Below are positions 4,801 to 37,715 of a stretch of DNA of 51,651 nucleotides, in pieces (the first letter of the stretch is position 1; each line of letters starts with the position of its first letter). The translations under genes and the position numbers were made by a program. A model generated the notes under the pieces. It saw only the letters and a program-made list of their open reading frames with translations. It was not told the DNA's origin and did no database searches. Source of the stretch: a virus; the IMG/VR virus record IMGVR_UViG_3300046491_000457, positions 1-51,651 of that record; one strand, 5' to 3'.

Positions 4801-5306
4801 TTGCCCGCGCTTTTCAGCGAGTCGTAGGATCTTTGGCAGGCCAGTCCGGCCCGACGACTTGCTGTAAGCGCTGCCGCCAGTTCGCCCGCATATCCATCAG
4901 CTTCTGATCGCAGGTCGGCGAGCAAATCGGCAAGGTCTGCGATTGTCTTGCCTCGCTCGGCAAGTCGGGTATTGAGGGCGGCTCGATCGGCAAGCAGCTT
5001 TGTGGTTTGCTCACGCAGGCTGTCAACGTCAGCGCGCTGCTCAGCAGCAAGAGCATCATCTTCTTGTTTCTGGTCGGCTGCATCTTGGCGCACCTGGTCA
5101 ATGTCGCGTTGGCGTTGCTGTTCAGTTTCGCGGGCTTTCTCGCTGGCCTTGGCTGCCTTCGTGGCGATTTCTGCCTTGTAGTCGGAAAGCTCGGTGCGCG
5201 CATCGCTGAGCCGCAGCGTCTGGTAACCCAGTCCTATAGCCAGCACCGCCATCACGGCACCGACCACCCAAACCCAGGCCGGGACGAGCTTTATCGCGGC
5301 GATCAC
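4782..5306 (-). CDS. Rz: Rz-like inner-membrane spanin
   Basis: A 174-residue protein with one N-terminal transmembrane segment (about residues 9-28), then a long charged, Ala/Glu/Gln-rich coiled coil. This is the usual i-spanin layout. It joins the o-spanin to span the periplasm and fuse inner and outer membranes at the end of lysis. The start is GTG at 5304-5306 and overlaps the endolysin stop as GTGA. The Rz1 gene is embedded in another frame inside it. It is the last gene of the late operon and overlaps the convergent transferase gene by 19 bp. Confidence 0.88.
   Translation of the reverse strand: MIAAIKLVPAWVWVVGAVMAVLAIGLGYQTLRLSDARTELSDYKAEIATKAAKASEKARETEQQRQRDIDQVRQDAADQKQEDDALAAEQRADVDSLREQTTKLLADRAALNTRLAERGKTIADLADLLADLRSEADGYAGELAAALTASRRAGLACQRSYDSLKSAGNQARSK
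4814..5083 (-). CDS. Rz1: Rz1-like outer-membrane lipoprotein spanin, nested in Rz
   Basis: An 89-residue lipoprotein in a different frame entirely within Rz. It has a positively charged start (RNKK), a hydrophobic stretch MMLLLLSSALTL and lipobox LTAC. After the cysteine come proline-rich segments (PIEPPSIPDLP). This is the classic embedded o-spanin arrangement of lambda. The ATG at 5081-5083 has a weak AGGTG upstream, and an ATG pair at 5054-5059 would also keep the lipobox. The protein should be lipidated, sorted to the outer membrane and pair with Rz. Confidence 0.85.
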   Translation of the reverse strand: MQPTRNKKMMLLLLSSALTLTACVSKPQSCLPIEPPSIPDLPSEARQSQTLPICSPTCDQKLMDMRANWRQRLQQVVGPDWPAKDPTTR

Positions 5307-32563: not shown

Positions 32564-33378
32564 GAAGCCCTCCGAGGAATGCGCGCCGAGGCCCCTTCGA
32601 ACACAAGGCCAATGCCGCGCCCTTCGCGCAGACGATCCACGCTGCGATCGCCCAGCACGGTGCCAAGCTCCTTGGCGTCGATGTTGGAGATGACGATGGT
32701 GGGCAGCTGCTCCTCGTACCGGCCATTGATCACGGCGAACAGGGTTGCCAGTTCGAACTCAGTCGGCTTGGTGGCGCCTACCTCGTCGATGATCAGCAGC
32801 GATGGTTCGACCAGGCTGGCGAATGCTTCCGCCTCGGTGTAGGTCGCCTTCTCGCCGTAGCTGCCCTTGATGTACTGCAGGAGTCCACCGACGGTGCGAT
32901 ACACGGCTGTCGCCTTGTGGTTCACGATCACGAAGCCAGCGATGGCCGTGGCCAGATGCGTCTTGCCGGTGCCGGGAGTGCCGGTCATCACGATGCAGCG
33001 GCCGTCAGCCATGTGCTGCGGGAAGTTGTCGGCGTACTCGATGCACTTCGCGAGATTGGCTTTCTGATCGGCCGTCTCCGCGCGGTAGTCCTGGAAGTTC
33101 TTGCCCATGAAACGGCGCGGAATCAGGGAGGCCCCCAGCTTGCGCTCCAAGCGCTCTTCGGCGATTCGGGCGTACATCAGGCGCTGTTCTTCCTGATCAC
33201 GGCGCAGCTGAGCGTCGGCGGCGCAGCCGGGGCAGCCCGAGGCGACATCAGAGTTCTTCCGGATGATCGCGGCATAGGCGCCGTGGCTTGGGCATTCAGC
33301 GGCCTGTTTGGCGACCACACTGAAACGGCGCTCGATTTCGTTGACGGTCAGGTCGACCTTCGGGGATTCAGAAGTCAT
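32560..33378 (-). CDS. DnaC-like helicase loader (AAA+ ATPase)
   Basis: A 272-residue ATPase from the ATG at 33376-33378 (an ATG nine bases further upstream is also possible). An N-terminal Cys motif (ECPSHG then GCPGCAA, about 29-52) may bind zinc. The AAA+ domain has Walker A GTPGTGKTH (133-141), Walker B SLLIIDEVG (near 192) and sensor region TIVISN. Like phage P and DnaC, it should load host DnaB at the phage origin. It overlaps the DUF1376 gene by 11 bp. Confidence 0.9.
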   Translation of the reverse strand: MTSESPKVDLTVNEIERRFSVVAKQAAECPSHGAYAAIIRKNSDVASGCPGCAADAQLRRDQEEQRLMYARIAEERLERKLGASLIPRRFMGKNFQDYRAETADQKANLAKCIEYADNFPQHMADGRCIVMTGTPGTGKTHLATAIAGFVIVNHKATAVYRTVGGLLQYIKGSYGEKATYTEAEAFASLVEPSLLIIDEVGATKPTEFELATLFAVINGRYEEQLPTIVISNIDAKELGTVLGDRSVDRLREGRGIGLVFEGASARIPRRAS

Positions 33379-34147
33379 AGGTGCCATCCCCGCGAGCTGT
33401 CAGCCCGGCCTTGTAATCGCGTTGGTCGAAGCCGGTGTGGCGGCTGGTCGGAAGGTGATGGACGTTGCTCGGCGCCTGAACCTCGTCCTCCCAGCGCTTG
33501 CCGTTGAGCCAGGTTGCCGGGTGCGGAATGAACTGGCCGTTGTCCTTGGTCCAACCCGGCGAGACGCACTGCTTGGCGAGACCTTGGGCGATCAGGGTGA
33601 AAAGGTCGTCAGTGACCTTGAGTTTCTTCCACGCCTTTTCGGCGGCTGCTTTTCCTTTCTTGTTCGGGTAGATCTTCCAGAACTTCGGGAACAGGTCGGC
33701 CGCCGGCGCTGGCGCCGAAGTCTTTTGATCTTCTAATGGTTTATGGTTAGTGGTTAATGGTTCTTGGTTAGGTGCCGGTTCGTGCACGAGTGGTGCACGG
33801 TTCGTGCTGTTTGAAGCACGCTTCGTGCGCTTGTCTGCTTCGCGCTTTTCGGCAATTTCTTTGTTTTTCAATGCGGTAGCGTGGTATGCCGCTACTTCGT
33901 CCCGAATGCGGGCCTGCACGTAAAAACCATCAACCACCTCGAAGAATTTGCGCAAAACAAACTCAACAGCTGCGATTTCCTCGTTGTTTTTGGCCCAGCA
34001 CCAGTCGATCGCCTCATCCATGGTGGGGAAGCGTTCACGGTCGTAGCACGCATCGAGCAAGAGCGTGTACGCCCCGTGCTCAAGCATGGAAAGGCGCCCC
34101 GCCTTCTTGTGGTAATCACCGATGTTTCGCTTGAAGTAATGCATCAT
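33368..34147 (-). CDS. Replication initiation protein (DUF1376, O-like)
   Basis: A 259-residue protein. The N-terminal DUF1376 domain has HYFKRNIGDYHKKAGRLSMLEHGAY (3-27) with LLLDACYDRE and AIDWCWAKNNEE. A variable linker (EPAPNQEPLTTNHKPL) follows, then a C-terminal domain with FPKFWKIYPNKKGKAAAEKAW typical of phage O-like proteins. It likely binds the origin and brings in the loader. The linker DNA holds five tandem heptamers and may itself be the origin. Confidence 0.85.
   Translation of the reverse strand: MMHYFKRNIGDYHKKAGRLSMLEHGAYTLLLDACYDRERFPTMDEAIDWCWAKNNEEIAAVEFVLRKFFEVVDGFYVQARIRDEVAAYHATALKNKEIAEKREADKRTKRASNSTNRAPLVHEPAPNQEPLTTNHKPLEDQKTSAPAPAADLFPKFWKIYPNKKGKAAAEKAWKKLKVTDDLFTLIAQGLAKQCVSPGWTKDNGQFIPHPATWLNGKRWEDEVQAPSNVHHLPTSRHTGFDQRDYKAGLTARGDGTYDF
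33738..33772. repeat. Five tandem GGTTNNN heptamers, candidate replication origin
   Basis: GGTTTAT, GGTTAGT, GGTTAAT, GGTTCTT and GGTTAGG follow without gaps inside the O-like gene. The stretch is AT-rich for this genome and next to GTGCACGA/GGTGCACG repeats (33781-33830). Lambda and P22 also keep iterons inside their O-type genes. Origin function is inference. Confidence 0.6.
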
Positions 34148-34422
34148 GCGACCTCCCTTTGATGCTTGAGGGCCGCATTGATGAGGCGCTTTTTCGCGTT
34201 GTTCACTGCACTGCGAGCGACATCCTTTGCTTTGAACTGGTCGAAGCAGAACACTTCAAGTTGCTCGTAAATAGGGTTGTCGCGAGTCACCCTGGCGTGA
34301 TCGTTGTAGGTCTTGTCGAACAAGGCCATGCGATCCAGCAAGGCATACTTAGCGGTGCGCAGTGCGCTCAATGCTTTCGTGTACTCAATGGCGCGCAGGC
34401 CAACGGCCTCTAGTTGGCTCAT
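34144..34422 (-). CDS. Small early phage protein, unknown
   Basis: A 92-residue, mostly helical protein (GLRAIEYTKALSALRTAKYAL at the start, AARSAVNNAKKRL-like VARSAVNNAKKRLINAAL at the end). Its ends overlap the KilA-N gene and the O-like gene by ATGA, so it is part of the co-translated early operon. No family recognised. Confidence 0.65.
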   Translation of the reverse strand: MSQLEAVGLRAIEYTKALSALRTAKYALLDRMALFDKTYNDHARVTRDNPIYEQLEVFCFDQFKAKDVARSAVNNAKKRLINAALKHQREVA

Positions 34423-35213
34423 GATTCGATCCTCAGAGTTTCAGCCATCAAGGCGCGCTGATGGCGAAGCATGAACACCTGATGAAGCTTCGCTTTGCGC
34501 TGCTCGAATTCCATGCCGACGTCTATGAGCGACGCGTTGAGGCGTTGCATGTGCTCGACAGCTTTAATCTGGCATGGCGAAAGGGTGTCGCGGATGGGGT
34601 AATTCGCAGCCAGGCCATGCTCGGCGCGGTACTGCTTGGAAGACCCGCCAAGAACTACTCGGTTGATCAGGTCAAATTCATTGCTGAAATGAAACGGCTT
34701 CAACTCTTTACCAGCGGACAGGCGCGTGTATTTCACAGCGTCCGTCATGGCAAATGATTCGAGGCGCGCCCGCTCACGAGATTGGCGACCTTCCGCGGCT
34801 TCGATCTGTCCAGTCACCACCGCATCGAAGGTGCGAATCACGTGCAGGTGAAATGCCGGGCTTATCCACATTGCGTAGCTGTAGATCAGCTCACGGCTAA
34901 CGTAGGTACCGCCATAACGCCCAGGCTTTGCTGCTATTGGGCTAAAACCCGGATTTTCCGTAATTAAAAACCCTTCAATTTCGGAAGTAGCCTGCAAGCT
35001 CAACCATTCATTAGGTCGAATGTCTTTGGCAACGCCGTCAGCTTTCGCGGCCTTCTCAAGGTCATTAAGAAAATAGCGCCCCTCCTCGTCCTGCCGGATT
35101 TTCACTCCAGAGATAACGATAGGTGCAGAAACCTGCGCCACGTTTTCCGAAACAACGAAACGTGGCGCGGAATGGATTGATGCTGTGTTGACATTATTCT
35201 GTTGAGTGCGCAT
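34419..35213 (-). CDS. KilA-N domain protein, putative regulator or antirepressor
   Basis: A 264-residue protein. The KilA-N DNA-binding domain covers about 36-130, with IRQDEEGRYFLNDLEKAAKA, NEWLSLQATSEIEGFL and GTYVSRELIYSYAMWISPAFHLHVIRTFD. The C-terminal half is helical, with LINRVVLGGSSKQYRAEHG. KilA-N proteins in phages act as antirepressors or regulators. It is the first gene after the 35.25-kb terminator, so its expression may need read-through. The start of the gene contains a perfect GCGCCACGTTT inverted repeat that may be its own target (inference). Confidence 0.8.
   Translation of the reverse strand: MRTQQNNVNTASIHSAPRFVVSENVAQVSAPIVISGVKIRQDEEGRYFLNDLEKAAKADGVAKDIRPNEWLSLQATSEIEGFLITENPGFSPIAAKPGRYGGTYVSRELIYSYAMWISPAFHLHVIRTFDAVVTGQIEAAEGRQSRERARLESFAMTDAVKYTRLSAGKELKPFHFSNEFDLINRVVLGGSSKQYRAEHGLAANYPIRDTLSPCQIKAVEHMQRLNASLIDVGMEFEQRKAKLHQVFMLRHQRALMAETLRIES
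35135..35168. repeat. Inverted repeat inside the start of the KilA-N gene
   Basis: GCGCCACGTTT at 35135-35145 and AAACGTGGCGC at 35158-35168 are perfect 11-bp arms, 12 bp apart. The GCGCCACG core recurs in the inverted repeat at 27884-27920 upstream of the portal gene. Confidence 0.7.
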
Positions 35214-35758: not shown

Positions 35759-35983
35759 TTAAGCGGCAGTAAGGGATTGCTTTTCAGGAGGGAACGCATC
35801 ATCGAGTCCGCATTTGGCCCCTAGAGCGTTCAATGCCTTGACGATGAGGCGGGCCTCGCTAAGCCCAGGGCTTCGCAGGCCGGATTCGTAGTTCGCCAGG
35901 CGGGACTGATTCCAGCCGAGCGCCCGGCGTAGCGCGGCCTGAGTCACCCCAGCCCTCTCGCGGATCATTCGGACTTGATTCAT
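35759..35983 (-). CDS. cro: Cro-like HTH repressor
   Basis: A 74-residue XRE-type DNA-binding protein from the ATG at 35981-35983, with GGAGGAG upstream. MIRERAGVTQAALRRALGWNQSRLANYESGLRSPGL is a classical helix-turn-helix. It is the first leftward gene, divergent from the CI-like repressor, with an operator in its promoter. By position it should act as Cro, but the direction is mirrored with respect to lambda's usual drawing. The longer frame upstream is not needed. Confidence 0.85.
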   Translation of the reverse strand: MNQVRMIRERAGVTQAALRRALGWNQSRLANYESGLRSPGLSEARLIVKALNALGAKCGLDDAFPPEKQSLTAA

Positions 35984-36008
35984 TTGGTGCTCCTCCATAG
36001 TTGAACAC

Positions 36009-36037
36009 AGGATAAACACGCATCGTGTTAAAGGCAA
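36009..36037 (-). promoter_or_regulatory. Leftward early promoter (Pcro) with operator in its spacer
   Basis: On the minus strand: -35 TTGCCT at 36032-36037, 17-bp spacer, -10 TATCCT at 36009-36014. The spacer contains the palindrome AACACG-ATG-CGTGTT (36015-36029), so a bound repressor would block the polymerase. The 13 bases AACACGATGCGTG recur in the rightward promoter at 37399-37411. Confidence 0.75.
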
Positions 36038-36060
36038 ACACAATAAGTGAAAGCCGGTTA

Positions 36061-36078
36061 TTTCATTTCGTGATGAAA
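36061..36078. promoter_or_regulatory. Palindrome before the CI start
   Basis: TTTCAT, six bases and ATGAAA end nine bases before the cI ATG. It may be an operator for CI or Cro at the repressor's own gene. No Shine-Dalgarno is visible between it and the ATG, so CI may be translated from a leaderless or short-leader mRNA. Confidence 0.4.
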
Positions 36079-36086
36079 TCCCGCGC

Positions 36087-36905
36087 ATGAACGAATCTTT
36101 AGCGCAACGCATCAAGCGGTTAAGAAAAGCGGCCGGCCTCTCACAGGCTGAACTGGCCGAGGCTTGCGGCTGGAAGTCGCAATCTAGGGTGGGAAATTAC
36201 GAGGCAGGTACTCGGGAGCCGACACTCGCGGATCTCGCGGCGATTGCTTCCGCAGTGGGGGTGCCGGAGTCAGAGATTATTCTGAATACCTCCCTCGCCG
36301 CGCCAGTCATAGCTCAATCAGTGGCAACAGGCGCGGTTGATATGGTTCGCGAGATGCTCGCCCAAAGCGGGAAATCCCTGCCGATCCACGTAAAGCAGAA
36401 ACTATTGGCTGCGGCGGAGGCGAACTCTGAGCAATCAAGCAACGTGGTCTCTGCTGATTTCTCTGGACTCCGAGTCAAGCCGGATGAAGTGCTCATTCCG
36501 CAGTACGACATCCGTGCAGCCATGGGGCACGGCCAGGTACCTCCTGACTACAACGAGACGATGCGAAACCTGATCGTCCGTGAGGATGTGCTGCGCGAGA
36601 AAGGCGTGACCTACACGGCGCTGAATGCCTTGGCAGTCATTACTGGATGGGGGCAAAGCATGGAGGGCACCATCAACGACAAGGATCCAGTGATCGTAGA
36701 TCGCGGGGTTACGGAGTTTGTTGGTGATGGAATCTACGTGGTCACCTGGCATGGCTTGCTGTACATCAAACGTCTGCAGATGGCAGATGAAGATCATTTC
36801 TGGCTGATCTCGGATAACGAGAAGCACAAGGATCAGCAGGCCAGAATTGACGATGTAACGATCCACGCGAAGGTTCTGCTGATCTGGAACGCTAGAAAGG
36901 CTTGA
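36087..36905 (+). CDS. cI: CI-type repressor with S24 peptidase domain
   Basis: A 272-residue prophage repressor. The N-terminal XRE helix-turn-helix (GLSQAELAEACGWKSQSRVGNYE, 17-39) is followed by a linker and an S24 peptidase-like C-terminal domain with S191 (GQSMEG in place of the usual GDSM) and K228 (LYIKRL). DNA damage should trigger RecA-assisted self-cleavage and prophage induction. The usual Ala-Gly cleavage site is not obvious. RAAMGHGQ (143-150) is the best candidate. It is divergent from cro and ends at a bidirectional terminator facing the DUF1654 gene. Confidence 0.92.
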   Translation: MNESLAQRIKRLRKAAGLSQAELAEACGWKSQSRVGNYEAGTREPTLADLAAIASAVGVPESEIILNTSLAAPVIAQSVATGAVDMVREMLAQSGKSLPIHVKQKLLAAAEANSEQSSNVVSADFSGLRVKPDEVLIPQYDIRAAMGHGQVPPDYNETMRNLIVREDVLREKGVTYTALNALAVITGWGQSMEGTINDKDPVIVDRGVTEFVGDGIYVVTWHGLLYIKRLQMADEDHFWLISDNEKHKDQQARIDDVTIHAKVLLIWNARKA

Positions 36906-36916
36906 TAACCGCTCAA

Positions 36917-36947
36917 TAAAAGGCCCGCCATTGGAGCGGGCTTTTTT
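36917..36947. terminator. Intrinsic terminator between cI and the DUF1654 gene
   Basis: GCCCGC, loop CATTGGA and GCGGGC, then six T on the plus strand. Convergent genes share it. Confidence 0.88.
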
Positions 36948-36954
36948 ATGCCTG

Positions 36955-37269
36955 CTAGAAAGGTGCCGGCGCCTCCGCCAGCTCCACGTCATCAACCTGG
37001 ACCGGCCGATCATCATCACTGGCCGCTTCCCACTCCAAGGTTATCGATTCTTCCTCGTCGTTTATCGTCAGGTCGATGCCATCTGTGTCTGACAGAACCC
37101 CAAGGATCTCGTCCCACTCCCGCTGACCGTCCGTGTCCAGGCGATGAATCGTCACCCGTCTATCCAGCTGCGCGACGGGATGGTTGACCATGTTCGAGAC
37201 CCTTATTACCAAGCGTTCCATGCCAGTCATGGGCTTGGTTTCACGTTGCTGTTTCTGGGGCTTTGCCAT
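36955..37269 (-). CDS. DUF1654 family protein, SOS-regulated
   Basis: A 104-residue protein of the Pseudomonas-typical DUF1654 family: MERLVIRVSNMVNHPVAQLDRRVTIHR (17-43), REWDEILGVLSDTDGIDLTIND (50-71), SITLEW (75-80). Its biochemical role is not known to me. AAGGAG stands seven bases before the ATG. A full LexA box lies just upstream, so the gene should respond to DNA damage like the UmuD'-like gene. Confidence 0.85.
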   Translation of the reverse strand: MAKPQKQQRETKPMTGMERLVIRVSNMVNHPVAQLDRRVTIHRLDTDGQREWDEILGVLSDTDGIDLTINDEEESITLEWEAASDDDRPVQVDDVELAEAPAPF

Positions 37270-37286
37270 CAGCTACTCCTTGATTG

Positions 37287-37302
37287 CTGTATGCATATAC
37301 AG
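37287..37302 (-). promoter_or_regulatory. LexA (SOS) box of the DUF1654 gene
   Basis: CTGTATGCATATACAG is a perfect CTG-N10-CAG box centred 25 bases upstream of the ATG at 37269. A -35-like TTGAAA on the minus strand (37306-37311) precedes it. Confidence 0.88.
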
Positions 37303-37387
37303 TTGTTTCAAAAAGCATATCCCACCTTTGCAGAGCGCGTCACCAGATTTTTCTCTGTGTTTATTTCAAATAAAATCACATTACGTG

Positions 37388-37416
37388 TTGACGAAATAAA
37401 CACGATGCGTGATAGT
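37388..37416 (+). promoter_or_regulatory. Rightward early promoter with the same operator
   Basis: TTGACG at 37388-37393, a 17-bp spacer and GATAGT at 37411-37416 form a sigma70-like promoter. AACACGATGCGTGAT (37399-37413) fills the spacer and touches the -10. The first 13 bases match the operator in Pcro exactly. It should drive the 37.7-49.7 kb operon and be silenced by the repressor. Confidence 0.72.
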
Positions 37417-37715
37417 TCACCCATCGCAGCGACAAACCAACGGTGCGACAGGGCCTCAAGAGACCCGCCGCTCTTTAACATCGATAGACCGCCGAGCCTT
37501 CAGGCATAGAAGGCCAGCAACCCAACAGGGCAATGCTGCAAACAGGTGTGACGGCAATAGCGCTGTCATTCAAGCGACACGCAAGCCGCGAACGAGGGCG
37601 GAAGCGTGATACCGGATGAGCGACCGGGGCCTGATTTGAAAAATCAGATTTCCTCAATGGCCTTGCATGCAGGGCCATTCGGGAAGCAGCATAGAGTGAC
37701 GATTTAGGAGGTTTT
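37417..37715 (+). other. Untranslated leader of the rightward operon
   Basis: About 300 bases before the first gene with no supported ORF. It contains a boxA (37469-37480), a stem-loop (37496-37514), and two further hairpins: CTGATTT-GAA-AAATCAG (37631-37647) and AATGGCC-N10-GGCCATT (37658-37681). The structured, gene-free leader suggests RNA-level control. Confidence 0.65.
37469..37514 (+). promoter_or_regulatory. nut-like antitermination site (boxA plus stem-loop)
   Basis: CGCTCTTTAACA at 37469-37480 agrees with the NusB/NusE-binding boxA of rRNA operons at 11 of 12 bases and resembles lambda boxA. Fifteen bases later, GCCTTC, loop AGGCATA and GAAGGC form a small hairpin in the position of boxB. 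It lies about 45-50 bases after the predicted start of transcription and ahead of the terminator at 37924. Confidence 0.55.

Follow-up and report, generated by a model that had tools for sequence, protein, structure and literature searches.

A probable lambda-type OL/OR operator set enclosing cI and a DUF1654 gene: sequence analysis of a Pseudomonas temperate phage immunity region

Introduction

In phage lambda, the repressor CI and the protein Cro use the same operator sites, the position of OR2 near -42/-43 suits the activation of cI, and rex sits between cI and the promoter PL. An arrangement of comparable type is found in the viral DNA analyzed here, which is the whole of IMG/VR record IMGVR_UViG_3300046491_000457 (positions 1 to 51,651; hereafter the window), and in which the genes cI and cro diverge and a gene of family DUF1654 lies between cI and a second early promoter. 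Very probably, the sites found there make up the OL/OR set of a temperate Pseudomonas phage whose immunity region is of lambda type. Such a set is ordinary in kind; the unusual part of the region is the DUF1654 gene between the operators. A further point of reference is provided by the Gifsy prophages, for which LexA-controlled antirepressors are described, together with heteroimmune repressors within one phage family (PMC3121763).

Results

A preliminary description of the window had pointed to a 13-bp word, occurring once in each of two early promoters, and had taken it for one operator common to both, resembling lambda OL/OR but with single sites. Two exact copies of this word, AACACGATGCGTG, are indeed present at 36017-36029 (minus strand) and 37399-37411 (plus strand), with cI and the DUF1654 gene between them, and a search of the whole 51.6-kb record brought up no further copy. 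The plus-strand copy falls within the spacer and the first -10 base of TTGACG-17-GATAGT (37388-37416), and the minus-strand copy falls within the 17-bp spacer of the cro promoter, a promoter read by eye. The word is nevertheless the wrong unit, being an off-centre piece of a 15-bp dyad, AACACG-N3-CGTGTT. Positions 36015-36029 form a perfect dyad of this type (AACACG-CAT-CGTGTT), and, compared with AACACGNNNCGTGTT, positions 37399-37413 have one mismatch and positions 37375-37389 have two.

The notion of an operator shared by both early promoters in the manner of lambda OL/OR is supported, whereas that of single sites is not. A matrix built for the window's class of CI DNA-binding domain (class A, see below) and run over the whole window finds three sites at OR and two at OL. 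These five are the top-scoring sites, with scores of at least 13.5, and the sixth scores 7.2; the matrix was trained on sites left of cI, those of the window included, so that only the two right-hand scores are independent. OR1 (36015-36029, score 21.0) lies within the spacer of the cro promoter and contains the minus-strand 13-mer, OR2 (AACACAATAAGTGAA, 36037-36051, score 15.2) adjoins the -35 element of the same promoter, and the weaker OR3 (ATTTCATTTCGTGAT, 36060-36074, score 13.5) stands directly before the putative -10 element of cI. On the other side, OL2 (ATCACATTACGTGTT, 37375-37389, score 19.2) overlaps the -35 element of the candidate promoter PL, and OL1 (AACACGATGCGTGAT, 37399-37413, score 20.5) occupies its spacer and -10 element and contains the plus-strand 13-mer. 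None of the five sites is assigned a strand. The three OR sites follow one another at 22 and 23 bp, the two OL sites are 24 bp apart, and OL is separated from OR by 1.4 kb.

The core of the dyad, CAC-N5-GTG, occurs 18 times in the window, against a mean of 16.4 in simulations. Four of the 18 cores are paired, with a distance of 22 bp in the pair at the cro promoter and of 24 bp in that at the right promoter, and two core pairs at 20-26 bp were met in none of 300 Markov-simulated sequences. A third pair, at 33796 and 33817 (21 bp), falls within the repeats of an O-like replication gene (33368-34147, minus strand). The cores at 33785-33817 were considered as additional operators and rejected, being part of the direct repeats of that gene and outside the top 15 matrix sites. 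These repeats, about 21-22 bp apart at 33734-33828, may possibly represent an iteron origin.

Relatives of the window CI were gathered from genome contigs and IMG/VR contigs by similarity to it, the viral scan contributing its best 80 of 233. A CI match was present in 135 sequences, and 132 of them were kept (L026, L034 and L046 gave no usable reading), among them the slice of the window itself (WIN) and two of its own pieces, L001 and L002; the DUF1654 gene could be placed in 119 of the 132. Removal of L001, L002, short flanks and near-duplicates left 96 loci with both the region upstream of cI and the region beyond the DUF1654 gene, including the window and its 99% relative L055. The C-terminal half of CI is common to these relatives, in part because they were chosen by similarity to the window CI, and the N-terminal DNA-binding domain, which varies by exchange among them, occurs in at least nine types, labelled A (that of the window) to I; the class names and class patterns are those of this analysis.

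Both operator pairs are conserved along with the domain. All 30 class A loci have the OR pair, with a constant distance of 22 bp, and 28 of them have the OL pair, with a distance of 24 or 25 bp, while neither pair of this type appears in any of the 66 loci of other classes. In 16 of the 30 class A loci, a site resembling OR3 was detected at -27/-28 from cI. Most other classes have palindromes of their own at both places, such as TTAACC-N3-GGT in class B and TTAGC-N5-GCTAA in class F. When matrices trained on left sites were applied to the right sites of their own class, the area under the curve (AUC) was 0.96-1.00 in seven of the nine classes (A 0.957, B 1.000, D 1.000, E 0.989, F 0.979, G 1.000 and I 0.962, the last from two loci). 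Within loci, the mean left-right similarity was 21.81, against 19.65 with permuted partners and a maximum of 20.34 in 10,000. The predicted operator identity thus follows the DNA-binding domain of the repressor at both promoters, the correspondence being weak for classes C, E and H.

Additional sites were observed in some class A loci. In 17 of the 28 with the OL pair, an extra CAC-N5-GTG core lies toward DUF1654, at more than 30 bp from that pair and in most cases some 50 bp ahead of the DUF1654 start (L036, L058, L095 and others); it is absent in the window. In L015 and L052, an isolated operator-like site (AACACAATACGTGAT and AACACAATACGTGTT, respectively) is located approximately 900-960 bp upstream of cI.

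Candidate promoters accompany both operator groups. PL (TTGACG-17-GATAGT, 37388-37416, plus strand), the putative rightward early promoter, was listed by the promoter scanner, which found one such site against a mean of 1.7 in shuffled sequences, and its -35 and -10 elements are conserved in class A. The putative cro promoter PR (TTGCCT-17-TATCCT, 36008-36036, minus strand) was not listed by the scanner, and its context is conserved in relatives. For cI, a probable -10 element of the promoter PRM, TGAAAT, is placed at 36074-36079 (plus strand), seven bases before the AUG, and a Shine-Dalgarno-like word precedes cI in none of the 30 class A loci; together these would agree with a cI message that has no leader. 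The centre of OR2 lies about 43 bp ahead of the cI AUG.

The DUF1654 gene (36955-37269, minus strand; PF07867, E 1.4e-17; phrog_2707) reads toward cI and diverges from PL. A LexA-type box, CTGTATGCATATACAG, to which no strand is assigned, is found at 37287-37302, separated by 17 bp from its start codon. In the 60 bp that precede DUF1654, CTG-N10-CAG is present in 95 of the 96 loci, compared to 2.4% of random 60-bp stretches, and the strict form CTGT-N8-ACAG in 45 of the 96, compared to 0.25%; the box is kept whatever the type of CI DNA-binding domain. Six genomes that were searched have two DUF1654 matches each, and 11 of these 12 matches have a LexA-type box, so that the link between box and gene is not limited to this immunity region. 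DUF1654 is a likely SOS-controlled gene placed inside the switch. Its AlphaFold2 model has a mean predicted local distance difference test (pLDDT) value of 76.9 and a predicted template modelling (pTM) score of 0.58, and a Foldseek search of the model against the PDB gave no match at E <= 0.001. In the VIA structure comparison, the best Z was 6.2 (ribosomal protein S8, R3H-like and other small alpha/beta folds), a value in the range regarded as common in that comparison, so that no function is drawn from it; the result does not speak against families outside its list. The literature search brought up neither these operators nor a functional study of DUF1654, subscription journals being mostly outside its reach; the name DUF1654 is used by one paper in the literature covered.

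Domain searches identify cI (36087-36905, plus strand) as a repressor with HTH_3 and Peptidase_S24 domains and cro (35759-35983, minus strand) as a small helix-turn-helix protein. A PDB sequence search with CI had C.AhdI (E 0.0008) as its sole match. The serine and lysine of the S24 domain (Ser191 and Lys228) are conserved in all 96 loci, and at the hinge CI carries Met-Gly (M146-G147) in a place where, by an alignment guess, Ala-Gly might be anticipated as the cleavage site. Motif comparison in relatives revealed a boxA-like element, GCTCTTTAACA, in the PL leader (37470-37480, plus strand), and GCTCTTT is present in the corresponding right-leader stretch of 69 of the 96 loci, compared to 6.3% of random stretches. 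This suggests an early operon with antitermination, for which such an element would be expected. Rfam gave no match at gathering thresholds over the whole window, and the right leader is therefore not a curated RNA family. In the leftward operon, a KilA-N domain gene (34419-35213) was noted downstream of cro.

Discussion

The repetition of a 13-mer is in itself weak evidence for an operator, since by arithmetic tens of chance 13-mer pairs are expected in 51.6 kb, and matches with three mismatches are at chance level in the window (18 found, 18.4 expected). The repeat may thus be a chance or unrelated word without a regulatory role. We regard this as extremely unlikely in view of the position of the copies, their dyad, their spacing and their conservation along with the CI domain, and the reading was rejected on the paired-core simulation and the class A conservation; the parts that are non-random are the dyad, the paired cores at both promoters and the conservation in relatives. 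Similarly, that each promoter has one shared operator, as first described, can appeal to the presence of only two exact 13-mers, yet each promoter has a conserved second site, at a distance of 22 and 24 bp, respectively, and on this ground and on that of the five-site matrix ranking it was rejected as exceedingly improbable. A different proposal is that the sites are mainly Cro operators, CI acting through other DNA. In the loci inspected, the Cro proteins change along with the CI domain class, so that the conservation test does not separate the two proteins. On the other hand, the loci sorted by CI domain separate cleanly, and lambda uses the same sites for both, which makes such a division very unlikely.

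The interpretation of the region as a lambda-type OL/OR set must also be weighed against several observations that do not favour it. Class C gave an AUC of 0.796, and class H, with three loci, failed altogether (0.539, motif not found); classes E and H contribute little to the excess of left-right similarity. Two class A loci, L015 and L052, have the OR pair and the LexA-type box at DUF1654, and show neither the OL pair nor a close boxA match at the OL place; they are perhaps rearranged prophages. In the window, there is no third OL site of comparable strength (the best, at 37347, scores 1.0), and the number of OL sites was treated as variable in the comparison with lambda. The cro and cI promoters were both read by eye, and a scan of ten proteins identified neither an N nor a cII homologue.

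From the sequence data, we infer the following scheme for the lambda-type operator set. CI, and probably Cro as well, would read the 15-bp dyad. In the lysogen, cooperative binding of CI dimers to OR1-OR2 and to OL1-OL2 would silence both early operons, and CI at OR2 would be placed to activate cI, as in lambda. Cro, or an excess of CI, may turn cI down at OR3. Looping between OL and OR would also be possible, since the two lie 1.4 kb apart. The DUF1654 gene might be an SOS module of this switch, off under LexA in the lysogen and on after DNA damage, with a product that targets the switch, be it as an antirepressor directed at the shared C-terminal half of CI or by way of RecA. We consider this tentative and rather doubtful: the nearly universal box and the Met-Gly at the CI hinge are consistent with it, and the S24 serine and lysine, conserved without exception, as well as the boxes before second DUF1654 copies elsewhere in the six genomes, argue against it.

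The present work maps, with good support, the operators of an immunity region that is frequent among Pseudomonas prophages. It also describes a natural series: a single type of CI C-terminal half occurs with at least nine types of DNA-binding domain, most of them with a matching operator at OL and OR. Immunity groups may thus be predictable from sequence, and the series offers material for the study of repressor-operator rules. In addition, attention is drawn to DUF1654 as a likely SOS-controlled gene within the switch.

Among described phages, 24 records with the DNA-binding domain were found, of which six were scanned (S107, mEp213, mEpX1, GF-2, Chris1 and pAEv1818), along with a seventh, phi297, with another domain. 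Salmonella phage S107, the coliphages mEp213 and mEpX1, and Edwardsiella phage GF-2 have domains with 48-56% identity to that of the window and, like the window, carry CAC-N5-GTG operators at OR; in these phages, the same operators also precede an N-type gene. Three sites before cI and three before the annotated N-type gene are recovered by the class A matrix in S107, mEp213 and mEpX1 (scores 8.1 to 20.0), and in GF-2 the core is present at all six places, with one matrix score under 8. These four phages differ from the window in having three sites at each place and in having no DUF1654 annotated in the stretches examined; the C-terminal half of the S107 CI, the only one compared, appears unlike that of the window. 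Two records that are more distant fit in part: Chris1 has two OR sites and a single weak site at 4972, and in pAEv1818 sites at 4975 and 4998 accompany two OR cores that score under 8. The scanned stretches also contain stray matches to the matrix with scores above 8, for example in S107 at 2281 and 4683. Pseudomonas phage phi297 resembles the window in the order cro, cI, DUF1654, in its divergent promoters and in the LexA-type box before DUF1654, but its DNA-binding domain is different; it has none of the class A sites, and another repeated motif, TAAGC-N3-CTTA, is found on both sides.

As in lambda, cI and cro of the window diverge and are separated by operators, another set of operators lies at a promoter directed away from cI, and the sites form pairs about two helical turns apart. 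Further likenesses are the centring of OR2 near -42/-43 with respect to a cI message that is likely leaderless, a boxA-like element in the PL leader, and a repressor with helix-turn-helix and S24 C-terminal domains. The window differs from lambda in having two strong OL sites rather than three, in the operator sequence, and in that no N homologue was identified. The preliminary description had seen a departure from lambda in the mere presence of a gene between the operators; this does not hold, as rex occupies the cI-PL interval in lambda, and the difference is rather that its place is taken in the window by a DUF1654 gene that reads toward cI and has a LexA-type box. The Gifsy prophages (PMC3121763) resemble the window both in the heteroimmune repressors within one family and in a small phage gene under LexA control, which is predicted here, whereas the DUF1654 gene of the window lies inside the immunity region itself.
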